A stretch of DNA of 64,000 bases, from NCBI GenBank assembly GCA_037974665.1, contig CM075775.1, positions 34,495,652 to 34,559,651 of the forward strand, read 5' to 3'. The notes beneath the pieces are model-generated. The model was given only the letters and a program-made list of their open reading frames with translations, was not told where the DNA came from and searched no databases. A program made the translations under genes and the position numbers. Source of the DNA: Ehretia macrophylla. Lineage: Eukaryota; Streptophyta; Magnoliopsida; Boraginales; Ehretiaceae. Shown piece after piece: positions 3,420 to 59,599 of this stretch; position 1 is the first letter of the stretch; every line of letters starts with the position of its first letter.

Positions 3420-3819
3420 ATTAAAAAAGGGTGAATAGCTCCAGACCCCCCTGTGGTCAAACGAAACTAGTTATAACCCCCCTGTGGTCTACAAAATATA
3501 GTCTGACCTCCCTGTGGTCCTACGCAAGGTGCATACGCACCACTTTCGTTACTTTCCGTTAAAAAAATTAACAACAACAATACAATGACCAATATACCTT
3601 TATTTTTAATGCTCATTCTTTTTAACTTTTTTACTATTTTCTCTTTTGACCCATGCTTTCACCCGACTCCTCTCACACGCACGCAGCATTTTCCCCCTCT
3701 CAATCACACACACCACACCATCTCAATCGCACATATCACACCATCTCTATCGGACCTGATAGCATCAGACGTCGGCCCATCAGATTAGCATATCTCCGGC
3801 GACATCTCCTTGAAGGCGA

Positions 3820-3900
3820 GGTAAATATATATACATACATATAGGTATATATACATATATGTACATACACACGCATACATGTATATATACACACACACAT
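3820..3900. repeat. TA/CA-rich microsatellite inside MULE
   Basis: Alternating purine-pyrimidine tract (tatatacatacata and acacacacac runs) between the MULE left end and the transposase. Confidence 0.7.
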
Positions 3901-4464
3901 TCTCTTTCACAACACATATATGTATTTTATTATGTCGACGATGCCTATTTTTATAGTATGATCAGGAAACAAACTAGGTTAATAAATTAGGGTTTTAAAA
4001 ATTGAGCGTAAATAAATTAGGGCTTGATATACTATTTAAATTAGGGATTTAGGAAAATAAATTAGGGCTTTATAATTAGTAAATAAATTAGGATTTTGGG
4101 TAAATAATTTAGGGGTATTAGTTATGAAATTTATACTCATTCGAGTTGTTTGAAATTTGTTTTTTCTAATTTATTTCATGCTATAGTATGATGAATTTGC
4201 TGCTATTGATGTTGTTGATGATATAGTTGATGATAAATTAGATGATAATGTTGTTACATAACTTCGAAGTTAGTGATGATGAGTTCACTGCTATTTTATT
4301 TCAGAATGAATGATGATAATGTTGATGTCAATAATGATGAATTTGTTGGTAGTGATTATGATAATTTTGGAATGTTTTATGGGTGTTGTGATATTCAATT
4401 ATGCCCAGGTGGTACGCGTGTGTATTATCCTGGGATTAGGTATGAGGGAAGGAAGAAAGAAATA

Positions 4465-4780: not shown

Positions 4781-7290
4781 CTACGCTACGCCAGGAAGGT
4801 CGTTGCATGATGACATAAGGGAGATTTGTGATGATGCTAGTGTTACAGAGTTTCAAAGTGTTTGTGTAGATTATTATTTGGTAACAGTGTATGCAGTAGA
4901 AGGTCATGAACCATTTTGTGCAATTGGAACTGATAGAAATATACTTAGTTCTAATGCATTAGTCTTGTATAATGGTGGTGTTAAAACTAATGGTTTAGGG
5001 GATGCCTTAAATGGTTCAGGGGAATCTACACAAGTACATGAACATGTAGAAGTGCTTAAAAATACAGAAGCACTTGAAAATACACAAGTACATGAACATG
5101 GTTCAGGGGAATCTACACAAACACATGAACATGTAGAAGCAGATGTAGATGATGAAGTGAGTGAAAATGAAGTGCATGAAGAAGATTCGGATGTAGATGA
5201 TGAGGATTATGTTGCAGAAACAGATAGATCGATTTCAGATACAAATTCTGATGTACCTAGCTTGGTGTATGAGGATGTTGAGGGATTAGGTGATAATGAC
5301 ATTTTCAATTAGACTGATGAGGGACAGGCTAAAAGAGAAAGGTACATTGCATGGAAAGAAGAAATTAAAAAGAGAAATCAGAAGAAAAAGAAAACCAATG
5401 AAAATGGTATTGATCAAAATTCAACTAGTGAATCCCGATGGAGCAGTGATGTGGAAGAGGATACCTTATATGATTCTGAATATCATCCAGAGTTCCCTAA
5501 TGATATTGATATGGGTACTTTTGAAATGCAAGTGAAACTGGAGTTTAAATCAATTGATGAATTTAGGAGGGTTCTGAAGGATTGGGCTATTAGAAAGGGC
5601 ATTTACTATAGATTGGTGAAAAATGAGAAGTCAAAAATCTGGGCGATATGTACTTATGCTAAAACCCACGGTTGCACTTGAGTACTACATGCATCTCTAG
5701 TTATGGGTGGTCCAACATTTATGGTTAAAACTCTTAAAGGTTCTCATAAGTGTGGACCTAGGTTTGATAATAGATTGGGTGATTACAAGTACATTGGAAA
5801 AAGGATGGTTGATGCTGTTAGGGATAATCCAACTCGGTCTACTGCAAATATGCAAGAAAAAATTCATTCGGATATCAAACTGACAGTTAGTAAATAGAAG
5901 GCTATGAAAGCCAAACAAGTGGCAAAAAGACTGATAAAAGGTGATTTTGAGGAACAATTTGCTAGATTGAGGGACTATTGTGCAACTGTCATTCAATGTA
6001 ATGAAGATAGCTCGGTGTTATTGAGGGTTGATAGGAGTGTACCTGATGAACCGAGGTTTGAGAAGTTGTTTTTCTCAGTGGCTACGATGAAGAATGGTTT
6101 TCTAGCAGGGTGTAGGCCAATAATAGGCCTAGATGGGTATTTATTGAAGACTACATATGAGGGCCATTTGTTAGCTGCAATAGGCAGAGATGGAAATGAC
6201 AATATGTTCCCTATTGCAATTGCTTTGGTTCCAATTGAGATGAGGGAGAGTTGGAGTTGGTTTCTACATGAACTGCACAACCTAATTGTTAATCCATATG
6301 CACATCGTTGGACTTACATTTTTGACAGGCAAAAGGGGTTATGTGAAGTATTCGAAAATGAATATCTAGGGATAGATCACAAGTTCTGTATTCGACACAT
6401 GTGGCAGAATTTTAAGCAAAAGTTTGGGGGTTTGAAATTCAAGGACTTATTTTGGAATGTTGCATCAACAACTAACATGAAAGAGTTTGAAATATGTATG
6501 AAGAGTATAGAGAAGGTTGACCCAAATGCATTTGCGTGGTTAAGAACGATACCCCCTCAGCAATGGGCAAGGTCGCATTTTCCACTAACTTCAAAGTGCG
6601 ACATATTGGTTAACAATCTCTGTGAATCTTTTAACAATTACATTATAGATGCCAGAGATAAACCAATTATCACAATGCTTGAAATGATAAGAGAAAAATT
6701 GATGACTAGAATGCAAGTGAAAAGACAGGGAATGGAAAAATATACAGGTATAATTTGTCCAAATATATTGAAGAGGATATCAAAATTGGTTGAGGCATCA
6801 AATGGTTGGTATGCTAACTGGGCAGGAAATAAGGAATATGAGGTTGTACAGGATTGGAACAAACAAGTTGTCAATTTGGTCACCAAGATATGCACATTTG
6901 GCATGTTTCAATTGACAGGATATCCATGTTGTCATGCGTTGGCTTGCATACACCGATATGGTAAAACTATGGAGGACTATGTGGATCATTGCTACTCCAA
7001 AGAAGTTTACATGAATGTATATGCACATATGATTCATCCAGTACCTTTTCCACTTGACTATGTTGACAGTGGAGGTGAGGCATTGAAGTCACCATTGGTG
7101 CACAAGAGAACTGGTAGGATTCGTAAGGTAAGAAGAAAGGGTCCTGATGAGTTGAACAAGCAAAATGGGAGTGCAATTGTTTCTACAAGGAAGGGCCAGA
7201 CCATAACTTGTCAAAAATGCCTACAGAGAAGACACAACAAGAAATATTGTGGAAATGATTTCCATCCAAATTCAAAATTATTAAAGGTAA

Positions 7291-7755
7291 AATAAATCTG
7301 AAATAGTTAATTTGTTATTATTTTACTTGTCAACTATGAAATATTATTTTGTGCAGGCAATGAACAATGAACATAGGTCAAATGTGGAACATATGGATTC
7401 AAATGTGGACCGGCCTTAGTCTTCTTCTTATGATGTAAGAAAATGTGTAACATCTTATGTTATTTACACTTAAAAATCAAATGAGTTGAGGAGATGAAAT
7501 CCGAAGAACTAATACTTATCACTAATAAATCTGAAATAGTTAATTTGTTATTATTTTACTTGTCAAATCTAAAATATTATTTTGTGCAGGCAATGAACAA
7601 TAAACATGGGTCAAATGTGGAATATATGGATTCAAATGTGGATCGCCTCAGCCTTCTTCTTATGATGTTAGAAAATGTGTAACATCTTATGTTATTTACA
7701 CTTAAAAATCAAATGAGTTGAGGAGATGAAATCCGAAGAACTAATACTTATCACT
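7291..7755 (+). repeat. Tandem duplication (233 bp x 2) across the last transposase intron
   Basis: Copy 1 is 7291-7523 and copy 2 is 7524-7755; both begin aataaatctgaaatag and end cttatcact. Each copy holds an acceptor site (tgtgcag) and a decayed version of the last exon start (gcaatgaacaa). The genuine last exon begins after a third acceptor at 7771-7773. Confidence 0.88.
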
Positions 7756-14146: not shown

Positions 14147-14238
14147 TCCGACCTGCCGGATTCGAACCAGCGACCTAAGGATAGCTATTGGGTGGGTCCC
14201 ACTACAGTCCTCCGCTCTACCAACTGAGCTAAGGTCGG
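14147..14238 (-). tRNA. tRNA-Tyr (GUA) with a 19-nt intron
   Basis: The minus strand folds as a cloverleaf: acceptor CCGACCT pairs perfectly with AGGTCGG, discriminator A at 14147, D arm AGCTCAGTTGGTAGAGC, anticodon stem GAGGA/TCCTT, loop CTGTAG-A with anticodon GTA at 14203-14205, and T arm GGTTCGAATCC. The intron tgggacccacccaatagct (14183-14201) sits one base 3' of the anticodon, as in nuclear tRNA-Tyr genes of plants; mature length is 73. A pol III terminator of T residues follows at 14141-14145. The gene looks functional. Confidence 0.96.
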
Positions 14239-30585: not shown

Positions 30586-31949
30586 AACTCTGCTACTGAC
30601 ATAGGAGGACATCCTCCACTGTTATATGTATAATTTTAAGTGTTAAAATCATGGGTTGATCCTAAAATCAATTGGTTTTAGGTGGAGTAACCCATGATCT
30701 TATATAATGGATTTAAAATACTTGGTGATGCTTCGATGTGATAGAAATATATATTCTAACATTTAGACTGATTGATGTTCAAAGTCTTAAGCGGCCGAAA
30801 TTTTCACGACAAAATACACACTATCTAGCAACAAGTTACGGATTCAAATCGAGAAAAAGCACGCTACCCATTTAACAAAAGATCGTGGATTCAAATTCCT
30901 GAACTCCCTTAAGCCTTTTCTCGGTTGACAAAGAAAAAAACAAATTTATTATCAACGTACAAAAATTGTGCCAAAGTATTATGCCAACATAAAGGACTTC
31001 AAATCATGCCATTGAACAATTAAAAGAATTTTTGCACTGATGCTCTTCTTTTCAATTTCAGTTGAATGTAATGAAAGACAGATTAAAAAGCTACTGAAAT
31101 AACTAAAGTGTATAATAGAACCAAGTCACCAACCAATAAACTACTTGTATCAACAACAATTCGACTAGACCAAGTGGTCAAAGCGTACTTCAAAGTAAAA
31201 AACTTGTAATATACTTAGCAAAAAAAAAAAAATTGCAGTCTAGTAGCGTACGGTGCTAGTGCCCGTGGTGGCGGTGGTGGTTTCATAGAACTTTAATGGA
31301 CCAACAACATTCATGTTATGAGATCAAAAAATAATGTACAAAGAATTCAAATAATTGGCCGGAAAAGAAACTAAATCAACCCGATATTAAGAAAAAGTAA
31401 ATATATAAAGTACATACCCATGGATGAAGAGATAGACATTATACATAGGAGGACTTAGCTAGTCCTCAATCAAGTACATGATCAAAACAAGCATGCAAGT
31501 GGGGGATTAGTCATATCCATCAAGTGTTGTGATAGGTGTTCCAAGGTAACGTATCTAAAGAGTTGGTAAAAAATTTTAATTGGCAAACCAATTTGTCCAG
31601 CGGATCACTTACTACTAGGTTGCATCGGATGTCAACTTGTAAAGACACTAAAACAAAAGTTTCGTGAAGAAAAAAAAAAAGCCCACAATTTGTCTCATGA
31701 TAAATAAAACGTGTCTCACTTAAAACTCCGAGAAAATATATATTTGCAGTCATCAATCAAATTTACGCCTTATCCTGGTAATTGATCATGCCAGATGTTA
31801 ACAATAGGTTCCGCCTGATTTTACTTTCATATATATATTTCAAGAAATTGGAATCAAATAGATTACTGGTTTAATTTCTCAGAAATGAACTTTTCTGATT
31901 AGCCAACCAATTCATATAGAGCTCTTTATGCTCAAAGATTTCCATAGCC
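30586..31949. other. Spacer and upstream region of G3
   Basis: 30586-31250 continues the block shared with 36780-37800. It includes a possible short LTR-like insertion at about 30620-30760 (tgttatatg to attctaaca) absent from the other block. 31500-31949 is the G3 promoter, matching 17690-18133 upstream of G2. Confidence 0.45.
31887..31949 (+). promoter_or_regulatory. G3 promoter with TATA box and most of the leader deleted
   Basis: The G2 and G3 upstream sequences align up to gagctctttat. G3 then lacks aaataacagctttcttat, which includes most of the TATA box, and after gctca it lacks a further 76 bp or so of the leader. It resumes at aagatttccatagccatg. Confidence 0.6.
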
Positions 31950-33086
31950 ATGAACCGAAACTTATCCCATTTCCAAAAGCTTAACCAAGAAAACATCCAA
32001 GAACGCATTAACCGTCGGCGGTTAAGCATCACCGGCCACCAGACAATGCCGCCACCACCACCACCACAAGAGCCACAACAGTCTGAAGCAAATCTTGACC
32101 TCCGGTTAAGCCTATGTTACAACCAGCCAACGCGACCACAACCACCACAACCACCACAAGAGCCACAACAAGCTGAAGCAACTCTCGACCTTCGGTTAAG
32201 CCTCGGTTACAACCAGCCAATGCAACCTCCACCACGGCCACAACAGGCTGAGGAAACCGCATCTTCATCACCTCCCAGTGAAACCAACCAACAAGATTAT
32301 CATGAAGCAACTCTCGACCTATATACTTTTCTATCACCTAACCCACAAGCAATGGCTCTGGCAGATCCTTCTTCTTACCTCGCAAGGACCCTTCAAAGCG
32401 TACAACAAAGCCTTGCAATATCAAGAAACCATCCACGTTCTCAAGAAATTTACTACCAAGAACGCGCCATTGCTTTACCACCAAGAACTACGACGACAAT
32501 GGAGAGTTTCTGTTCATCGTCTTCAAAACAAATAGATCATCACAAGGGTCAAAATAAAGATCCGCGTCCTCGTCTGGACACTCTGAGGCCAGGGAAGACG
32601 GAAACGATACCGGCACCATACCCTTGGGCAACCACGCGACGTGCCACAGTGCATAGTCTCAACCATCTGTTATTACATGGCATAAATAACATTATAGGTG
32701 AAGTTCAATGCCACAATTGTTGGGATCAATATGAAATAACATATGATTTGCAACAAAATTTCACGGAGGTTGCTCTCTACATTTCGAGATTCAAGAGTAC
32801 CATGCACGGTAGGGCGAATGCTAAATGGATGAAACCAGGCCTTCTCAATTGCGAGAGTTGTAAACAAAGCAATCGTGTTTGGCCTGTCATTAGTAAGATC
32901 AAGAAGTCCATCAATTGGCTCTTTTTGCTTTTAGGTCAAATGCTTGGATGTTGCAAGCTTCGTCACTTGAAGTATTTCTGCAAGCATACCAGAAATATTA
33001 GATCCAGATCAAAAGATCAATTACTATATCTTACTTATCTAGGGCTGTGCAAGCAACTTGATCCTGACGGACCTTTTGATCCATAA
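31950..33086 (+). CDS. G3: DUF7086-type protein with two LxLxL repeats
   Basis: 378 residues, the longest intact member. Residues 1-30 hold the conserved start MNRNLSHFQKLNQENIQERI. Residues about 33-92 are two 30-residue repeats (Pro run, QEPQQ, then LDLRLSL at 49-55 and 79-85). LxLxL is the EAR repression motif that can recruit TOPLESS-type corepressors. The domain spans 223-378 with CxxC pairs at about 254/257 and 301/304, INWLFLLLGQMLG and YFCKH. No stop or shift. The start matches the paralogues. It is a nuclear repressor candidate by inference only; the family has no known function to me. The coding part is intact but the promoter has lost its TATA box. Confidence 0.8.
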   Translation: MNRNLSHFQKLNQENIQERINRRRLSITGHQTMPPPPPPQEPQQSEANLDLRLSLCYNQPTRPQPPQPPQEPQQAEATLDLRLSLGYNQPMQPPPRPQQAEETASSSPPSETNQQDYHEATLDLYTFLSPNPQAMALADPSSYLARTLQSVQQSLAISRNHPRSQEIYYQERAIALPPRTTTTMESFCSSSSKQIDHHKGQNKDPRPRLDTLRPGKTETIPAPYPWATTRRATVHSLNHLLLHGINNIIGEVQCHNCWDQYEITYDLQQNFTEVALYISRFKSTMHGRANAKWMKPGLLNCESCKQSNRVWPVISKIKKSINWLFLLLGQMLGCCKLRHLKYFCKHTRNIRSRSKDQLLYLTYLGLCKQLDPDGPFDP

Positions 33087-34925: not shown

Positions 34926-35006
34926 GCATAAAAATCATTCTCATACATCCGCTCTAGCTCTGTTCCTATATATTGTTATCCAAGCACTCTCAAGATCTCC
35001 ATAGCC

Positions 35007-36020
35007 ATGAAGCCAAACTTACTCCATTTCCAAAAGCTCAACCAAGAAAACATCCAAGAACGCATTAAACAGCGCCGGTTAAGCGTCCCTGACCACCAGC
35101 CAACGCCGCCGCCACCACCACCACCACAAGAGCCACAACAGGCTGAAGCAACACTCGACCTCCGGTTAAGCCTTGGTTACAACCAGCCAACGCCACCTCC
35201 ACCACAGCCACAACAGGCTGATGAAATCGCCCCCTCATCACCTCCCAAAGACACCAATCAAACCCATGCAACATTAGAAAATTATCCACATTCTCAAGAA
35301 ATGTATAATCAAGAACGAGTCGTTTCTTTACCACCAAGAACTACGAGAATGGAGAGTTTCTATTCATCGTCTTCAGAACAACAACATCATCACGAGGGTC
35401 AAAATGAAGATCAACTAGTTAATCTTTCACTTGGAGTGCCTACATTTCAACCAAATGATGATACGAAATCAGTTCTTGCAAGTCCAGGCGTACGGCGCCG
35501 ACGTCTTCGTGCACTGACTCCAAGGCCAGGAAAGAGCGAAACAATACCGGCACCATACCCATGGGCAACCACACGACGTGCCATAGTGCATAGTCTCGAT
35601 CATCTGTTATCACAAGGCATAAACACCATTACTGGTGAAGTTCATTGCGAAGAATGCGAGAAGCAATATGAAATTGCTTACAATTTGCAAGAAAAGTTCA
35701 AGGAGGTTGCAGCATTTGTTTCAAAGAACAAAGATGGCAAGCATAATAGGGCGCCTGATCAATGGATGTCTCCATTCCTGCTCGATTGCGAGATTTGTAA
35801 ACGAAGCTATTGTGTTAGGCCTATCATTGGTAAGAAGAGGTCCATTAATTGGCTCTTTTTGCTTTTAGGTCAAATGGTTGGATTTTGCAAGAAACCTCAG
35901 TTGAAGTACTTCTGCAAGCATACCATGAATCCAAGGACAGGGACAAAAGATCAATTACTTTATCTTACTTATCTAGGGCTGTGTAAGCAACTTGATCCTG
36001 ACGGATCTTTTGATCCATAA
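35007..36020 (+). CDS. G4: DUF7086-type protein with one LxLxL repeat
   Basis: 337 residues. Begins MKPNLLHFQKLNQENIQERI; polyproline at about 34-40; one QEPQQAEATLDLRLSLGY unit (LxLxL at 50-56); a Ser-rich linker with the internal MESFYSSSS motif and NLSL; then the conserved domain from PYPWATTRRAIVHSL to GPFDP-like DGSFDP. The CxxC pairs are VHCEECEKQYE and LDCEICKRS. All key residues are kept and the core promoter is intact. This is the best candidate for a fully functional subgroup I member. Function unknown; a corepressor-recruiting, zinc-binding nuclear protein is inference. Confidence 0.82.
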   Translation: MKPNLLHFQKLNQENIQERIKQRRLSVPDHQPTPPPPPPPQEPQQAEATLDLRLSLGYNQPTPPPPQPQQADEIAPSSPPKDTNQTHATLENYPHSQEMYNQERVVSLPPRTTRMESFYSSSSEQQHHHEGQNEDQLVNLSLGVPTFQPNDDTKSVLASPGVRRRRLRALTPRPGKSETIPAPYPWATTRRAIVHSLDHLLSQGINTITGEVHCEECEKQYEIAYNLQEKFKEVAAFVSKNKDGKHNRAPDQWMSPFLLDCEICKRSYCVRPIIGKKRSINWLFLLLGQMVGFCKKPQLKYFCKHTMNPRTGTKDQLLYLTYLGLCKQLDPDGSFDP

Positions 36021-37898: not shown

Positions 37899-38660
37899 TT
37901 AACGAATCTGAGGAAGAAGCTGTTCATAGAGGCCGATATATGTGCGATAAACAAGATGTGCTTTACTGCCTTGTTGATCATACCCATTGTGTTTGCAGAA
38001 GTACTTCAACTGCTCAAGACTGCAACACCCTATCCATTGTCCCAAAAACAAGAACAGCCAATTGATGTCCTTTTTCTTCATCTCAATAATGGGCATTACA
38101 TTTTCAGATTGCAAACAAGAAATGCAGTCTAGTAGCCTAGGGTGCTCCCAAAGATATGGAGCCATTCCACTCGTTGTGTACTTATTCGCAATGATGAAGT
38201 TCGAAACCTCCATGAACTTTTCCTGCAAATCATAACGCATTTCGTATTTTTCTCTGCAGTGTTTGCATTGCATCGACCCTTCAATCGTGTTTATGTTCTG
38301 AAGTAGCAAGTAGCCGATGGGGTGTAGAGCTGCACGGCGAGTAGTAGCCCATGGGTATGGTGCATCGATTAGTGGTAGAGGCATAGGAGCAGAACCACTG
38401 GTACCTGAGAAACCTGAGGTGGGCAATGCAGTTGTTGGTGGAAAAGCATTGGAAGGTTGTTGATACATTTCTTGATGAGAACGTGGAGAGATTCTTGGTG
38501 TTGCATGGCTTGGTCCTACGCCTTGTGATGGAGAAATATTTGGGTCGAGAGTTGCTTCACGATCTTGTTGTGGCTGCGGTGGTGGTGGTGTCGGCATTGG
38601 CTGGTGGTGGTCATGGCGTTTTTGGATGTTTTCTTGGAAATCGGATAACTTTCGCTTCAT
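37899..38660 (-). CDS. G5: DUF7086-type protein, subgroup II
   Basis: 253 residues, the only minus-strand member. Begins MKRKLSDFQENIQKR, with a short TPPPPQPQQ tract. The position of the LxLxL motif reads ATLDPNISPSQG, so the EAR-like motif is gone. The conserved domain runs from PYPWATTRRAALHPIGYLLL with CxxC pairs MQCKHCREKYE and LDCISCLQS, then INWLFLFLGQWIGCCSLEQ, LKYFCKHNG and a shorter end (YIGLYEQLLPQIR). It groups with G6 and G7 by GQWxGCCSLEQLKYFCKHNG. ORF and core promoter are intact, so it is probably expressed. Function unknown. Confidence 0.82.
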   Translation of the reverse strand: MKRKLSDFQENIQKRHDHHQPMPTPPPPQPQQDREATLDPNISPSQGVGPSHATPRISPRSHQEMYQQPSNAFPPTTALPTSGFSGTSGSAPMPLPLIDAPYPWATTRRAALHPIGYLLLQNINTIEGSMQCKHCREKYEMRYDLQEKFMEVSNFIIANKYTTSGMAPYLWEHPRLLDCISCLQSENVMPIIEMKKKDINWLFLFLGQWIGCCSLEQLKYFCKHNGYDQQGSKAHLVYRTYIGLYEQLLPQIR

Positions 38661-38738
38661 GGCTATGGAAAATCTTGAGGGTGCTTTGATAACGATACGA
38701 AGAGAGAGCTAGAGAGGGTCTGAGATGGATCTATGTGC

Positions 38739-41483: not shown

Positions 41484-42415
41484 TTATCATTGCAGGAAGA
41501 ATGATACAAGTTACCTTATTACTTGCACGAGAGGCAATGGTTTATTAAGAATCATTGAATTCCATCTTAAAATTAATTTGCACTATATGGGAGTAGTCCA
41601 ATATTTTATATGATAAATTTTGTGTTTATGATTTTTATAAATAGGAGGGATTATATATTTTAATACCTTCTCACATGTGATTCGGTAAGTATTAAGAATC
41701 GAGAACTGACATAGTGGCGCATGAGAGTGAGACAAGAGGATAAATGGATCTCACGTGGATAAATATGACTAGATAAATGGTCTAATTTTAATACTTTATT
41801 AAGAATTATGAAGTTCTATATATGCTAAAACTAATTAGTATTAAGTAAAAAGTTTCATCTCTCTACTGATTACAGGCCCAATTTGCAGGATTATTTGCTT
41901 TACGATTGATGAATCTGAACTAAATCCAATCTAGCTTGGCAAACGTATCTGTAACCTCCATCGCAGTGTGTTGAATTTTCCAATTACTTGAGCTTTCCGG
42001 ATTATTTATGTTAATAATGCTTTTTGTTTACATAATAGAAACAATGCTGATTGATGCATATATATATAAATAAATTAAGTTGAAATCTCTAGAACCCAAC
42101 TCAATTTTATTTTCTTAACTTTAACTCCTGGCTTAAATTAATTCTTTAGACTATACACATAAATTATTCTTCAAAGACCTTAATTTCCTTAAAAGACAAA
42201 TATTGTTAAATTCTCTTCTCAGAGAAATGTAGTATTACTAGCCAATAATCTCCATATATATTTTATCTGGTGCTAACAAGTAAATATTATATTCATGATG
42301 ATATTTACTTCGAGATTCAATTTCGGAACCTTCTCACAATTAAAATGAGAATCATAACATTAGAATAAATGCCTAATTGCAAGCTTTTCTTTAGTTGCTA
42401 ACCGTTTTTGATTAA
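41484..42415. other. Spacer and G6 upstream region
   Basis: No gene seen. From about 42068 (ttgaaatctctagaacccaa) the sequence matches 48438 onward, marking the left edge of a segmental duplication. Confidence 0.5.
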
Positions 42416-43970: not shown

Positions 43971-45728
43971 GCTCATTTTGATTCTTTAAACAAGGGTTTA
44001 ATTGTGAGCTCCAAAATCATATCTGTTGCATCACATATACTCAGATGATTCCATGCCCTCTATCTTGCATGTAACCATGCATGGATCTATATATCATTAG
44101 TTTAGTAGCTTTTAGTGGTTTATAATTTGATTGTATGAAGATTTTTGGAAAAATCTCACATTTAGTTCCTATTGTTTTTTAGCTCTCAGTTTTTGTAGTC
44201 CCATATAAATCAACAGAAATTGATGAAAAGAAGAGCAACAGTGCAATGAATTCTTTTGATTGTTCCTTATTATTCTCTATGTATGTTTGATGGAAGATTC
44301 TGTTCTTGGCAATTGTATTCTGCTTGTCTCCGCGACATGTAACACGGTGTGAAAAGTTTGCCAAGCTTAGTCTGACTCAATGTTTGTCCGTTGATATTTT
44401 TTCTTTTGCTTTTTCTTTTTGTTTTTTGTTTTTTGTTTTTTTTGTTTTAGTGGAGCCAAAGCCGAGATTACACATTGACCAATTTAGGAGATGTTTTACC
44501 CCTAACATTCTTTTCCAGAAAACCCGAAACAGCTTTGATGGTTAATCAAAATGGTAAACTCTCAAAGGATGCGGCAGACCAAAATTTGTCAAAAAATCTA
44601 CGTACATTTATTTACTTCTTGATAAATATAATAAATCTTATACTCGGTCGAGCAGCAATAACTACATGGAGCTGCCCTGGTCATATAATAATTCTTTTTA
44701 TTTTTTGTGCCAACCGTGAAAAGGGGTAGGGAGTTGGGATTTGGATTCTCTCCTAACTAGAAGTTTGTTGGATGGAACTTTTGTCGCGAAGATATCTCTT
44801 ACCTTTTAAACGAAGACAAGTCTAAGTGGTCATTAATATTATGAAATGAATTTAAACATAAATAGAATGAGTTAAGAAATGAAATAAAAATAAAAATTGA
44901 ATAAATTTGATAATGAGTATGTCATGTTTGATATATTTTAGAAATGAAGATAGAAATAGGTCTTTCACTTTTTTCCCCTTGTCGTTTAAGATTTGAAATT
45001 TTGCGCTAGTATAATAGCCTTTATTTGACGCAATTTACCAATTACATAATGCAAAACAATGACGTTTATAAGATTTCTGATGGATGAAATTTGCAATTTA
45101 ACTCTAAATCTTCCCGCGCAATATGACCAATCAGATAACTTCAGTACTTTACTGATTTGACCACATTGATTAGTTTTTTTTTTTTTTTTGTCAAACATTG
45201 ATTAGTTGTTGGTTTTAGGCACTTTGTCACAGGAAAAAAAATGTTTGACATTTATACATGAAAAATATTTACAACCAGCAAGGTGGGACAGTCGATTTAA
45301 ATCGAGAGGTGGATTTCACTTGTATGAGACTCTTTTCGTGAGTATTGCATGTTCAATTTTGGTGGATAGAAGAGTTTTTCCTATATAATGGACAATGAGC
45401 ATAAAACTTTCTAATCAAATTAAAGGGAAATTTTCATTTTCCCCTATGAGATTAAACCAACTTCCAAACTCCCTCATATAAGGTTTAACTTTCATCCCGA
45501 TTCTCCCATGATTATTGACAAAGTTAAACAGATACTAAGTTGGAAGGGCATTTATGTCTCTTTACACTTTGTAAAAAAAAAAAAAAAACTCCATTATTGC
45601 ATTATCAATCCAATAATATTACAACATTAATCAGCATTGTTTCTATACTATGTAAACAAAATTAACATAAATAATAACTATCTTTTCGATTTGAGGTATT
45701 ATCGAAACATTTATATATATAAATGTAC
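43971..45728. other. 3' flank of G6, duplicated downstream of G7
   Basis: Shares long stretches with 51600-52780 (for example gaaattttgcgctagtataat and gcactttgtcacaggaaaaa against gcactttgtcacagaaaaaa). The end (45430-45600, cttccaaactccctcatata) may be one half of a MULE-type end. No gene seen. Confidence 0.5.
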
Positions 45729-46000
45729 CACAACAAAAAAAATTAGATTTTGCGACGGGCCGTCGCCATCCCGTCACCAATACGGTGATGGCTTGATGAA
45801 GGGAAATGTTGACACCAATTTTGTGACAAGACAGGAACGGCATAGTGTGAGACGGAAAAAATCGTTACCAAGCCGTCACTAATAGTGACGGCATACTTTG
45901 CCGTCTCCAAAATTGGAAACGGCAACGCCTCCCGTCTCCAAAATTGGATACGGCAGCAACTCCCGTCTCCACTAATCTTTAAAAAAAAAAAATTAAGGAC

Positions 46001-46021
46001 ATCAGCCCCATTGGGGCTGAT
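46001..46021. repeat. Short perfect hairpin
   Basis: atcagcccc-att-ggggctgat: a 9-bp stem with a 3-base loop, between the subterminal array and the eS17 promoter. It may mark the junction of captured DNA. Confidence 0.55.
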
Positions 46022-46059
46022 CTAATTTCAAAAACAAACACCTACCCCCACGTCCCCTA

Positions 46060-46165
46060 CCCCACACAAACCCTAACCCCCCTTCCTTTCGCTTCCTTTT
46101 GCCGCCTCCTTCACGACCAAAGCCACCACCTTCGCCACCTACCTACCAGCCAGTCAGCAGCAGCC
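46060..46165 (+). promoter_or_regulatory. eS17 promoter/leader with telo box and pyrimidine-rich tract
   Basis: aaaccctaa at 46068-46076 is the telo box found in plant ribosomal protein and translation-factor promoters. It is followed by ccttcctttcgcttcctttt, a pyrimidine-rich leader usual for such genes, 70-90 bp before the ATG. Confidence 0.7.
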
Positions 46166-46591
46166 ATGGGCCGTGTTTGCACAAAGACAGTAAAGAAATC
46201 TTCTCGGCAAGTCATCGATCACTACTACTCCAAAATGACACTCGACTTCCGCACCAACAAGAAGATCCTCAAAGAGGTCACCATCATCCTATCGAAGCGT
46301 CTCCGTAACAAGATCGCTGGTTTCTCGACCCACTTAATGAAGCGCATCCAAAAAGGTCCCGTTCGAGGCATCTCACTGAAGCTGCAAGAAGAGGAGAGAG
46401 AGCGTCGCATGGACTTTGTCCCTGACGAATCTGCCATCAAGATTGATAACATTGAAGTTGACAAAAAGACCATTGATCTTCTTGCTTCTTTAGGCATGTC
46501 TGATTTGCCTGCACTTGTTCTTAAAGAAGAGCAAGCTCCGATTATGGCGGCTCCTGTTGGGTTCGGCCGTGGCGGTGGCCTGAGGTACTAA
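46166..46591 (+). CDS. RPS17: 40S ribosomal protein eS17 (S17)
   Basis: 141 residues, full length for the family, one exon, no stop. [18 protein letters not shown] at the start, [20 protein letters not shown] at about 50-69, [20 protein letters not shown] at about 71-90 and a Gly-rich [10 protein letters not shown] end are diagnostic. The protein is part of the small ribosomal subunit head. Several substitutions fall at positions I remember as near-invariant: Cys at 5 (Arg expected), Lys at 36 (Glu) and Leu at 42 (Pro). These suggest relaxed selection. The gene retains a telo box and pyrimidine-rich leader, so it was captured as genomic DNA, not as a retrocopy. It sits inside CACTA-type ends. 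Either a captured duplicate or a resident gene flanked by element ends is possible. Confidence 0.93.
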
Positions 46592-47980
46592 AAGAATTTT
46601 GTCTGAACGATTAGAATTTTGATAGGTTGTTGTTAGTTTTTGCTGAAACTGATGTTTTGTTTAGACTTGTTATGTTATTGTTAAAGATTTAAGTTTTGAG
46701 TAATGTGTTAAAGAACAATTTTGGAACATGTTTTATGTTAGGCTTGTTTAATTATTGTGCTTGCTTATTAGTTAATGATATCGGTTTGTCATTTTGGATG
46801 TTAGATGTTATGAGGTTTTGGTGGCTTAATGTTATTGTGCTAATGGTTTATGTTCTAGTATATGTAATGTCCTACATTCGTGGGGAACATGATCCTAGGT
46901 GTCGTTTATAAGTTCGTGTGGTTGGTTCAAGGAATAATTTCGTTTTATACTTTAGGGCAAGTAAACTTGAGACCTAACATAGTTTCCTTGCTAGGTCACT
47001 TGCAGTCTCTGAAGTTTAATGTCTGATTTTGATGTCCATTTTGCTGAATACTACTGTTAGCTTTTGTTTTGAAGTGTGCTATTATTAGATTTCAGCTGTT
47101 TGTTTTGATTGTCGTTGTAAATCTAGTAAGTCAATTCGATGTTTTTTATACAGGTTCTTTTCTCTGAGATAAATGCATATGAGGTATGAATTTCGCAGTT
47201 ATACAAAATACAACATCTTCCCCATAAAAATCATTATGAGCCCCGTGTTACCCGCCTGAATACAAGTAATACATACTATGTGAATGCTCTATTAGGAAGA
47301 CTTGAGAACTGAGGGTATAATACTATTTCCCGTGTCACATTGTGTTAAGAGTTTATAGATTGATTTTGATTGTACATTGGGAGTGTTTAATTACCTTTTG
47401 ATTTACTGAGGTGGTGGTTCATATTTAAAATAAGATTCTTTCTATTGTTTCTATGAATTGAGTGATACCATCTTTCGGCAAAGCTTGCCTATGCCTGATA
47501 GGCTCTACAAGTGAGAAAATAATCATAGATTATGCTAAGCTCTTCAGAATTTGCAGGCTCTGTTATGCAAAATCAATTATGGTTGTCTTAAAGTTTTATT
47601 TCCTCCTACTACTATATTGTTGGTTAGTTCATTTGTTTGCCCCATTTTGCCTCTAAAAAGTCTAGACCTGATTAATTTCTTTTTTTGAGATGCTCGAAAT
47701 ACTATTTCTAATTTTTATTCTTCTTTTCCTATATCTTTTCATTATTTATTTTGCAAAATCAAGTTGTTATTTACGATATTTTCTTAATCTACATTGGTGC
47801 AGACTCAACTAGTATGTATATAAATGGGTTAGTTGTACATATATCAGTCAAAGATGATCTACTTTTGCATTATACCCATTTTTGTAGCAGATTTGTTTCT
47901 ATTATAAAGAATTGTGACATGTGAGACAAAGTAGAGATAATAATTAACAACATACACATGTAGAGAGAAGAGGGGGTTTT
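46592..47980. other. 3' flank of eS17 inside the element
   Basis: T-rich sequence that looks like the 3' UTR and downstream flank of the ribosomal gene. No second ORF of significance and no repeat until the right subterminal array. Confidence 0.45.
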
Positions 47981-47989
47981 GGGAAGAGA

Positions 47990-48400
47990 GAGAAGATAAA
48001 CTGTTGCATGGAGTTTTGGCGAGGGCTTGGCGACGACTGTTTTAGTGACAGCATGGGGACGGGCGAAGTTGGCGAGGGCATGGTGATGAGAAATTTTAGT
48101 GATGGTATGGTGACGGGAATTGTTTGTGACGGCATAGTGACGGGAAATTTTTGTGACGGCGTGGTAACGGGATAAATTGGCAAGGGCTTAGTGAGGGGAA
48201 ACATTGGCGACGGCTCGATGACAGCAATCATTGGTGACGGCCTGGGGACGAACCCTCACAATACGCCGACGACTTGGTGACTGAGAGGATTTTGGTGACC
48301 ACCTCGTATTTGACGGATATTTTTCCTTATCGTGCCTTCGCAAAGTCGAAATTGGCGATGACACGATGAGGGGAACTGTCCATCGCAGAATTTAGTTTTT
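47990..48400. repeat. Right subterminal array of the eS17 CACTA element
   Basis: Ten or so imperfect units of 33-36 bp with the core gtgacggcatggtgacgggaa; the same words in shorter form line the left end. Confidence 0.75.
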
Positions 48401-48437
48401 TTTATAGTGTATAGTCACATTTAGTGGAAAATAATAG

Positions 48438-50665: not shown

Positions 50666-51586
50666 ATAAAGCGAAAGTTATCCCATTACCAAGAAAACAC
50701 CCAAGAACGCCATAACCAGCACCAGTTAAGCATTTCTGATCACCACCAGCCATCGCCACCACAACCACCAACACCTCCCATTAATGAAGCCAACAAACAA
50801 GATCATGAAGCAACTCGCGACCTAAGAATTTCTCCATCACAAAGCATACGATCAATAAGCCTGCATGCAACACCAAGAATCTAACCACGTTCTCAAGAAA
50901 TGGATCAAAATGTGCCACAACAATTGCTCCAACTATGGCCATCTATACTTCAACGTCTATTGCCAAGAGCAGACCTGCAGCCTGCTCAAGTGACACGGCG
51001 TATGGAAGCGCTACGACAAGTGATGCTTCGGCTTCAGCGGCCACCAACACCTCCACCTCCTCCATCTACACCTGACCATCATGCTGGTTCATCCACAGCT
51101 GCTAATCAAAATAACCAGGAGCTAATGGTGGCACCACACACATGGGCTACTACTCGTCGTGCGAAAGTACGCGGCTATGGCTTCTTGTTACTTGAGGGCG
51201 TAAACACCATTCACGGGTGGGTGCAATGCAAGTACTGTGAAAATACATACAGAATCGATTACAATTTTAAGGAAAAGTTCATAGAGGTTGCGTCGTTTAT
51301 CGCTGGGAATGAGAACAAAATGGGTGGAATGGATCCATCTTTCTGGGAGCACGCTACGCCTCCGTTATGCAATTCTTGTCAGAAATATGAATATGTAGTG
51401 CCCATAATTGAGATCAAGAAAAGGGACATCAATTGGCTCTTCTTGTTCTTGGGACAATGGACAGGGTATTGCAGTCATGAACAGTTGAAGTACTTCTGCA
51501 AGCACAATGGTTTGAGTCAACAAGGCACTAAAACAGAGCTTCGCTGGCGAACATATATGTCCCTCTTACTACAGCTTCTTTCTTGA
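50666..51586 (+). pseudogene. G7: DUF7086-type gene, start codon lost; domain ORF 50900-51586 intact
   Basis: Aligned to G6, the start codon is ATA at 50666-50668. The frame from there is open except for TAA at 50882-50884, where G6 has TAT. From the Met at 50900 a 228-residue ORF is intact: MDQNVPQQLLQLWPSILQRL, the G6/G7-specific helical segment, a Pro-rich linker, and the domain from HTWATTRRAKVRG with CxxC pairs VQCKYCENTY and LCNSCQKY, INWLFLFLGQWTG and LKYFCKHNG. The lost N-terminus had only a decayed LxLxL motif. Two foldback elements sit in its promoter. It may be a pseudogene or a gene using the later start; conservation of the domain favours recent loss or continued use. Confidence 0.75.
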
Positions 51587-57500: not shown

Positions 57501-58470
57501 CTATCCTGACCTGAGGTGAGTGAGGAACTGGTATTATACTTGGCATGCTCCGGGACAACAGTGGCGGCAACATTAGTTCGTGAAGAAAGGAAGGAACAGA
57601 AGCCGGTCTATTATGTCAGCAAAACCTTGCAAGGGACGGAGGCGAGGTACTTCTCCTTGGAAAAACTCGCCATCGCGCTCATCACGACAGCAAGAAAGCT
57701 GAAGTCATACTTTGATGTCCACCCAATTAAGGTCATGACGGATGCCCCACTTAAGTCCATCATGCACAACCCGGAGGCGTCGGGCAGGCTATTAAAATAG
57801 GCAGTGGAGCTAAGCTAATTTGGTGTCACCTACCAACCCAAAACAGCCATCAAAGTCCAAGTCATCACGGACTTTGTGGTGGAATATACTGGCCGATCCG
57901 AGCATGACCCGGAGGATATATGGAAGGTAAATGTGGATGGAGCATCGAAAAAGTAAAGAAACGGAGCCGGGGTGGTCATCCTCGACCCGACCTAGCATGA
58001 GCACCAATATTCCCTTAAGTTCGCATTTCCAGCGTCCAACAATGAGGCTGAGTACGAAGTAGTGATCGCGAGGTTAAAAATTACGGCTCAACTCGGGGCA
58101 AAAACAGTTGACCTGAGTACATACTCTCAATTGGTCGCTAGTCAGATATCAGGTGAATTCAAAGCCAAGGATAATGCAATGCTGGCCTACCTCAACAGAG
58201 TAAAGAATTTAACCTCAAGGCACAAGAGGTTTACGATACAGCAAATTCCGAGGGAGGAGAATATGAAGGCTGTCGTTCTATCCAGGTTGGCCTTGGGCGA
58301 GAGCCAACCTGCACTGGTGCATATAGAAGAAGTCTCCGAACCAAGTATTCAGTTGGTAAGGCAAGCCGTAGCTGAGCTCAATTTAAGCCCATATTGGACC
58401 AAACCAATCATGGACTACTTGGAGGGAGGAATGATCCAGAAGGATGAAAAGCCTCAAGGTTTGTCATAAT
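57500..58470 (+). pseudogene. gypsy RNase H and second (archaeal-like) RNase H
   Basis: 57516-57800 is the RT-linked RNase H (YYVSKTLQGTEARYFSLEKL). 57930-58250 is a second RNase H: WKVNVDGASKK, SNNEAEYEVVIARLKI; where DSQ is expected it reads YSQ, so one catalytic Asp is lost. Two RNase H domains in tandem define the Tat lineage. Confidence 0.8.
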
Positions 58471-58499
58471 AGCTGGGCAGCTCTACAAAAGAGCTTACA

Positions 58500-59599
58500 C
58501 TTGGCCTCTCTTGAAGTGTGTTGGGCCCGAGGAAGGAAACTATGTACTTCGAGAGATCCATGAAGGGGTATATAGAAACCACTTAGGTGGTAAGGCTCTA
58601 GCTCGGAAAGCATTAAAGCAATGCTATTTTTGGCCGACCTTAGAACAAGACGCCAAAGAGTATGTAAAAAAGTGTGACACCTGCCAGAGGTTCGCCAATG
58701 TACAGAGAAAGCTAGCGGTAGACCTGACGATGATGATAAGCCCATGGCCATTATATCAGTGGGGTCTAGATATCATCGGCCCATTGCCAACCAATATTGG
58801 CCAGAAGAAACACGCCTTCGTGGCTGTAGACTACTTCACCAAATGGCCCGAGACTGAAGGCGTTGCTAGAATAACAGAAAAGACAGCTTGGGATTTCGTA
58901 TAAAAGAATATCATTTGCCGATTTGGGGTGCCAAAGGTCATCATTACCGACCACGGCAAACAATTCGACAGTGCATACTTTCGAGGCAAATATGCTGAGA
59001 TTGGGATCGACCTCAGATTTTCATCTAGTACTCACCCTCAAAGTAATTGCCAAGTTGAAAGGACTAACCAAATCATTTTGCAGGGTCTGAAAACCAAGCT
59101 AGAGGAAGCAGAAGACCAGTGGGCGTCGATTCTCCTCAAAGTGCTATGGGCCCAACGAACTACCACCAGCTCGACAACAGGAAAATCACCCTTCGAGCTG
59201 ACCTTCGGTACTCAAACAGTACTGCCAGTAGAGATCGGGTCTCCTACCAGTAGAACCCTCCACCATGAACCAGGAATAAACGGAGCCTTGATCCGTGAAG
59301 AGCTCGACCTCGCTGAAGAGCTCCGACCTAAAGCTCAAATCAGGATGTTGGCTAGCAAAGCTGCCATGCAAAGAGCCTTTGCTAAGTAGGTCAAGCCTAA
59401 GCCTATTAAGTTTGGCGACCTCGTCCTCAAAAAGGCCATCTTTTTTACGCGCTCGGATAACAAGCTTTCCCCAACCTGGGAGGGACCGTACGAAGTCATG
59501 AAAGAAGTCCGACCTGGGACCTTCTACCTCCGCGACAAACACGGGAAACAACTGAAGAATGCATGGCACGCAGAACACCTGAAGAGCTATTTTGTCTAA
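58500..59599 (+). pseudogene. gypsy integrase
   Basis: Zinc-binding HHCC (EIHEGVYRNHLGGKAL and CDTCQRF), then the DDE core: WGLDIIGPLP (D), VIITDHGKQFDS (D) and NCQVERTNQI (E), and a C-terminal GPYEVMKEVRPGTFYLRD region ending at 59599. Stops at 58901 and 59387 only; the best preserved part of the element. Confidence 0.85.

Follow-up and report, generated by a model that had tools for sequence, protein, structure and literature searches.

The window, by which we mean the whole stretch of 64,000 nucleotides of Ehretia macrophylla DNA that was analysed (C12:34495652-34559651, within a 1.58-Gb genome of 20 contigs), contains a non-autonomous CACTA element that encloses an intact open reading frame (ORF) for the ribosomal protein eS17 (Table 1). 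According to a profile search, this ORF encodes the full eS17 protein of 141 amino acids (PF00833, E 7.6e-55), and its best match among the chains of solved structures is 8auv_D (E 3.5e-71). Subterminal arrays, a trait of the CACTA superfamily, are present near both ends of the element, and an ORF search of positions 45729-48409 found no ORF of transposase size, which makes the element non-autonomous, a condition permitted in this superfamily. At the start of the leader lies the motif AAACCCTAA, which we take to be a telo box.

The window also contains a MULE transposase domain (5898-7292), a retrotransposon integrase zinc-binding domain (58448-58900), and, on the minus strand, an Rfam tRNA match of 59.7 bits with no ARAGORN call (14147-14238), which is perhaps an intron-bearing tRNA gene.

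Table 1. Features of the eS17-carrying element and its surroundings, in window coordinates.
Feature	Position	Strand	Remarks
Non-autonomous CACTA element carrying eS17, entire	45729..48409	+	2681 bp; end match and genome-wide recurrence of parts
Target-site triplet TAC, left	45726..45728	.	one mismatch to right triplet
Target-site triplet TAT, right	48410..48412	.	one mismatch to left triplet
Transposon left part (terminal inverted repeat, subterminal repeats, transposon leader)	45729..46058	+	330 bp; homologous over varying lengths to gene-less elements L023-L027
Left subterminal array	45888..45971	+	three copies, 31-bp spacing
Left joint, short CCACAC-like stretch common to donor and transposon	46059..46067	+	donor homology from 46059; L026 and L027 homology up to 46067
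Captured donor segment, C8 eS17 locus	46059..47106	+	1048 bp; 94-95% identity to L009 (C8), confined to these bases
Telo box AAACCCTAA, leader start	46068..46076	+	read from the sequence; C8 counterpart CAACCCTAA
Intact eS17 ORF	46166..46591	+	141 codons plus stop
Captured donor 3' region	46592..47106	+	515 bp; ends without a poly(A) tract
Transposon right part	47107..48409	+	1303 bp; gene-less elements match from about 47115
Right subterminal array	48016..48251	+	nine 21-bp copies, 26-27 bp spacing
DUF7086 ORFs, local cluster	31920..33083, 34932..36017, 37902..38708 (-), 50885..51583		all four ORFs tested positive; flanks apparently duplicated

Element ends and insertion site

The outermost 30 bases of the element, CACAACAAAA and CACTATAAAA, are identical in inverted orientation at 24 of 30 positions, a match that is not unusual by itself, since at least 20 of the 128,600 CAC/GTG pairs in the window score higher; the left end differs from CACTA by one base. 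We accept these ends as real because the terminus pattern and both transposon parts recur across the genome. A 28-base terminus pattern, typed from the ends of this element and of its relatives, has 75 exact occurrences in the genome, compared with none for the reversed control. The left part has at least 39 other genomic matches, mostly covering the first 243 of its 330 bases (best 40 of 738 candidates scored), and the right part is found again on many contigs (best 40 of 1588 candidates scored).

Perfect target-site duplications (AAT, TGT, AAC, and AAA) border four of six related elements; of the remaining two, CCC is a possible duplication in the one whose left end is worn, and L023 shows none. 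The flanks of the window element have partial local paralogs in the DUF7086 gene cluster, where positions 42001-42279 contain pieces of both flanks with the element absent, but some bases are lost there and a short piece is inverted. This paralog, though rearranged, supports insertion; a clean empty site was not found, the local paralogs being rearranged.

Gene-less relatives and transposase genes

Five related elements with both ends present (L023-L027) carry about 2.9-4.5 kb of other sequence in place of the captured core. They are 5.0-6.8 kb long, and their two halves match the left and right parts of the window element, the left homology ending at 45971, 45991, or 46067. Two of them, L023 (C16) and L024 (C20), are 6.2 kb long and have a common core that is 92.5% identical; the L023 core includes a DUF4283 domain (one piece over and one under the cut-off) and is perhaps LINE-derived.

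CACTA transposase genes are present in the genome (best 150 of 1891 candidates scored, every row listed over the cut-off), several of them with long open frames. The terminus, left-end, and transposase matches listed yielded no autonomous member of the family, and the closest pair of left end and transposase noticed by eye among them is 24.7 kb apart (seven pair distances were computed). A candidate partner at C8 77.78-77.80 Mb, with terminus and transposase 14 kb apart, was rejected owing to their opposite orientation.

Origin of the captured segment

A search of the genome with the eS17 protein returned 29 matches (30 of 30 candidates scored), which were grouped as 18 loci. Ten of these cluster within 2 Mb of C11, and the others are the window, C8, C12:26.59 Mb, C18, C4, C17, C7, and C10. 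The likely parent is the canonical gene at C8:31541404-31541826, which encodes a standard eS17 in an intronless ORF and adjoins a short-chain dehydrogenase gene. The match on the gene side spans C8:31541297-31542475, and homology to the 7 kb around this gene covers the captured segment of the window and nothing else, with transposon homology beyond both of its limits. At the sensitivity used, no CACTA remnant was detected in the same 7 kb. Downstream of eS17, the C8 locus has a stretch of about 121 bp in two copies (L009 about 3689-3941) that is single in the window (46750-46871).

The initial annotation described CACTA-type ends and subterminal arrays around a complete captured eS17 gene with its promoter. 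The ends, the arrays, and the complete coding sequence stand as described, and the promoter only in part. At C8, a TATA-like box (TATATAA) lies about 30 bp above the joint, outside the captured segment, which begins with the telo box; the phrase "with its promoter" is thus only partly correct. Capture with the donor core promoter is therefore ruled out. The leader and the telo box derive from the donor, the first base of the latter being A in the captured copies and C in today's C8 gene, while the DNA upstream of about 46059 is transposon sequence with a putative promoter role.

Captured copies elsewhere in the genome

Copies sharing the joints of the window element are found on six contigs (C4, C7, C10, C11, C12, and C17). 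The left joint between transposon and gene recurs in the C4, C7, C10, and C17 copies, and the right joint is crossed by nine of the ten C11 copies (three of them aligned across the joint), L019 stopping short. Given this recurrence, we conclude from the sequences that one capture was then amplified. In a tree of the coding sequences, C8 and the captured copies are grouped with a support of 92.9/93 and the captured copies together with 89/71; the support for this captured clade is moderate, no branching is resolved inside it, and the C8 branch is about 0.001 long.

The C4 copy, which retains both ends and is bordered by AAT/AAT triplets, is sited within a Ty1/copia pol region, from which it follows that the composite moved as a unit. 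In addition, this element contains a pair of eRF3-like exons kept apart by other sequence (L010 about 5652-6650; C4:37726451-37727450). The second matches eRF3a (E 5e-8); the first was recognized by eye, and the 80-aa ORF that includes it has no match among the solved structures at E up to 1. Positions 5445-6546 of L010 are 95% identical to the C10 copy.

On C11, ten eS17 copies (L011-L020) lie within 2 Mb (C11:22.75-24.71 Mb). Their DNA match begins at window position 46201 (codon 12), or 46208 in L019, and is preceded by other sequence, which in L011 is copia pol. In three of the ten, the match extends to the right end of the element; in the remaining seven, it goes no further than 47151 over the stretches compared. 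In L011-L013, the shared stretch extends past the element, which fits segmental duplication, and by its sequence the cluster looks like a segmental duplication of one rearranged locus.

Among the captured copies found, the whole ORF is kept only by that of the window. The protein match is broken near codons 104-110 in all ten C11 loci, stops near codons 115-119 in the C4 copy and near codons 53-57 in the C10 copy, and the start codon is lost in the C7 and C17 copies.

Sequence change in the captured eS17

The initial annotation pointed to substitutions at the normally fixed positions 5, 36, and 42 and read them as a hint of relaxed constraint, giving weight to the absence of a stop codon. The substitutions are confirmed: R5, E36, and P42 are kept in the C8 gene, the C18 gene, and the five best-aligned structure chains, and at positions fixed in the aligned chains the window copy carries R5C, R19H, E36K, A39T, P42L, and E101K. 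The changes at codons 42, 63, and 101, including L42, are common to the window, C7, and C17 copies and may reflect either descent or repeated deamination. The eS17 gene at C12:26.59 Mb (L029, C12:26593406-26593816) has E36 and P42 and is mostly canonical apart from a deviant start (first 15 residues MGRGPPKTGEKTTPQ), which could be a frameshift pair, an assembly error, or a real change.

The coding sequences of the window copy and C8 differ at 22 positions, 11 synonymous and 11 nonsynonymous, with a pairwise dN/dS of 0.284. When changes were polarised using the C11 and C4 copies, a strict count assigned 16 to the window branch, 8 nonsynonymous and 8 synonymous, 11 of the 16 being of the C>T/G>A type; this count leaves out two ambiguous sites, with which the figures are 9 and 9. 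At codons 81 and 135 the window agrees with C8 and only other copies differ. As a neutral yardstick we used the 10 window-only changes in the 515-bp 3' noncoding stretch, at whose rate 6.8 nonsynonymous and 4.1 synonymous changes are expected. By this measure the imbalance is a synonymous excess and not a nonsynonymous deficit; deamination in C/G-rich third positions could be its source. The C>T/G>A changes alone (6 nonsynonymous, 5 synonymous) show no shortage (P 0.42).

Tests of a low nonsynonymous share depend on the mutation model. P is 0.022 under uniform mutation and 0.038 or 0.062 with transitions weighted 2:1 or 4:1, and 0.015-0.047 in the simple models when the ambiguous sites are included; under the observed spectrum, P(N<=8) is 0.11, or 0.09 with those sites. 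The chance that no stop would have appeared is 0.58 for the strict count and 0.52 with the two ambiguous sites (observed spectrum), and 0.51-0.68 over the simple models. The intact frame is thus ruled out as a sign of selection, and the weight given to the missing stop is not justified under the models tried.

These data bear on the possibility that the window copy works as a diverged eS17 paralog, or did so in the past, with the transposon supplying the sequence for its expression and selection maintaining it. Its full ORF without any indel, its retained leader, a dN/dS within the 0.2-0.6 range given for CACTA-captured wheat genes (PMC4290129), and the shortage of nonsynonymous relative to synonymous changes under simple models (P 0.015-0.06) would all agree with such a paralog. 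However, nonsynonymous changes have accumulated at the noncoding rate, the shortage loses significance once the observed spectrum is used, several fixed positions are altered, and the donor TATA-like box is missing; on balance we consider a working paralog unlikely. Weak or past constraint is possible on the basis of 16 changes. Relaxed constraint, as first suggested, is likely, the nonsynonymous count near its noncoding expectation favoring it and the shortage under simple models speaking against it, so that the noncoding-rate and mutation-model yardsticks disagree. Most probably, the window copy is in decay and the element around it silenced.

Mode of capture

The reading we favor, and hold with considerable confidence, is that of a Pack-CACTA element in which the family core was replaced by 1.05 kb of DNA matching the C8 eS17 gene and which was then amplified, the full frame surviving by chance. 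A host gene lies between CACTA ends without a transposase, its parent lies elsewhere, and the segment has moved with the element. Capture would have taken place at the DNA level, for example through two neighboring CACTA ends that behaved as a single element, or alternatively by template switching at a short shared sequence. Capture through neighboring CACTA insertions with complementary terminal deletions is described in a review (PMC13317346, consulted in part), and such a route, with the left part coming from one element and the right part from another, would fit the architecture seen here. The element would then have moved with transposase supplied in trans and may later have undergone silencing and methylation, followed by decay through cytosine deamination. 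Preservation of the full frame by chance and not by selection would be the least secure of these steps.

A processed, mRNA-derived eS17 retrocopy taken up later by a CACTA element is highly improbable. The copied piece does begin about 30 bp after the TATA-like box, near the likely transcript start, and, as the C8 ORF is intronless, the two routes are not distinguishable by an intron. Against an mRNA origin, 515 bp past the stop codon were copied, the segment ends at a right joint (TTTGTTTT/GATTGT) without a poly(A) tract, and the eRF3-like exons of the sister C4 element lie apart, separated by other sequence, which indicates capture at the DNA level. We give almost no credence to a native eS17 locus between two separate CACTA insertions or fragments, the alternative named in the initial annotation for a sole eS17 locus: apart from the imperfect target-site triplets nothing speaks for it, and it is contradicted by the joints that recur at other loci, by C8 homology ending where transposon homology begins on both sides, by the left and right parts matching the two halves of gene-less elements, and by the presence of other eS17 genes at C8, C18, and C12:26.59 Mb.

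Relation to known elements

Pack-CACTA elements and gene capture by CACTA transposons are already established (PMC8903248, PMC13317346, PMC8978399, PMC4290129; consulted in part). Like the Pack-CACTA and Pack-TYPE elements described in the accessible text of PMC8903248 and PMC13317346, the window element has CACTA termini, subterminal repeats, and no ORF of transposase size, with host coding DNA inside, a parent elsewhere, and dispersed copies; unlike the comparators described there, it encloses the coding sequence in full, together with leader and 3' region, and its C4 sister adds an eRF3-like piece. On wheat chromosome 3B, 140 CACTA capture events are reported, mostly of fragments, with 13% transcribed and under purifying selection, and in the accessible part of that study (PMC4290129) host genes, some of them complete, likewise lie in CACTA elements and are repeated across family copies. 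Our case comes from another plant and, despite a dN/dS in the wheat range, the branch-specific noncoding yardstick fits neutral change. Soybean Tgm-Express is also a CACTA element with host gene sequence (PMC1947982), but it carries gene fragments according to the title of that report, whereas the window element holds one whole gene. Among the open-licence papers listed in literature searches, none was on eS17 in a transposon or on the capture of a ribosomal protein gene. The window element thus belongs to a known kind, Pack-CACTA, of which the eS17 member is new.

A more far-reaching proposal is that the promoter of a complete, divergent eS17 variant (C5, H19, K36, L42) comes from a CACTA transposon, that this transposon-controlled variant would enter some ribosomes, and that the family would form a mobile store of translation genes, with the C4 member carrying eRF3-like exons; judged from the sequences, we regard it as very unlikely. 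The Pack-CACTA reading has its own significance, since one genome provides the donor together with both joints, relatives that lack the gene, sister copies that are broken, and a yardstick for neutral change. Most annotation pipelines would probably call the window copy an ordinary ribosomal protein gene, and the combination of an intact frame and a pairwise dN/dS of 0.284 with a noncoding-like nonsynonymous rate bears on the way in which surveys count captured genes as "functional".
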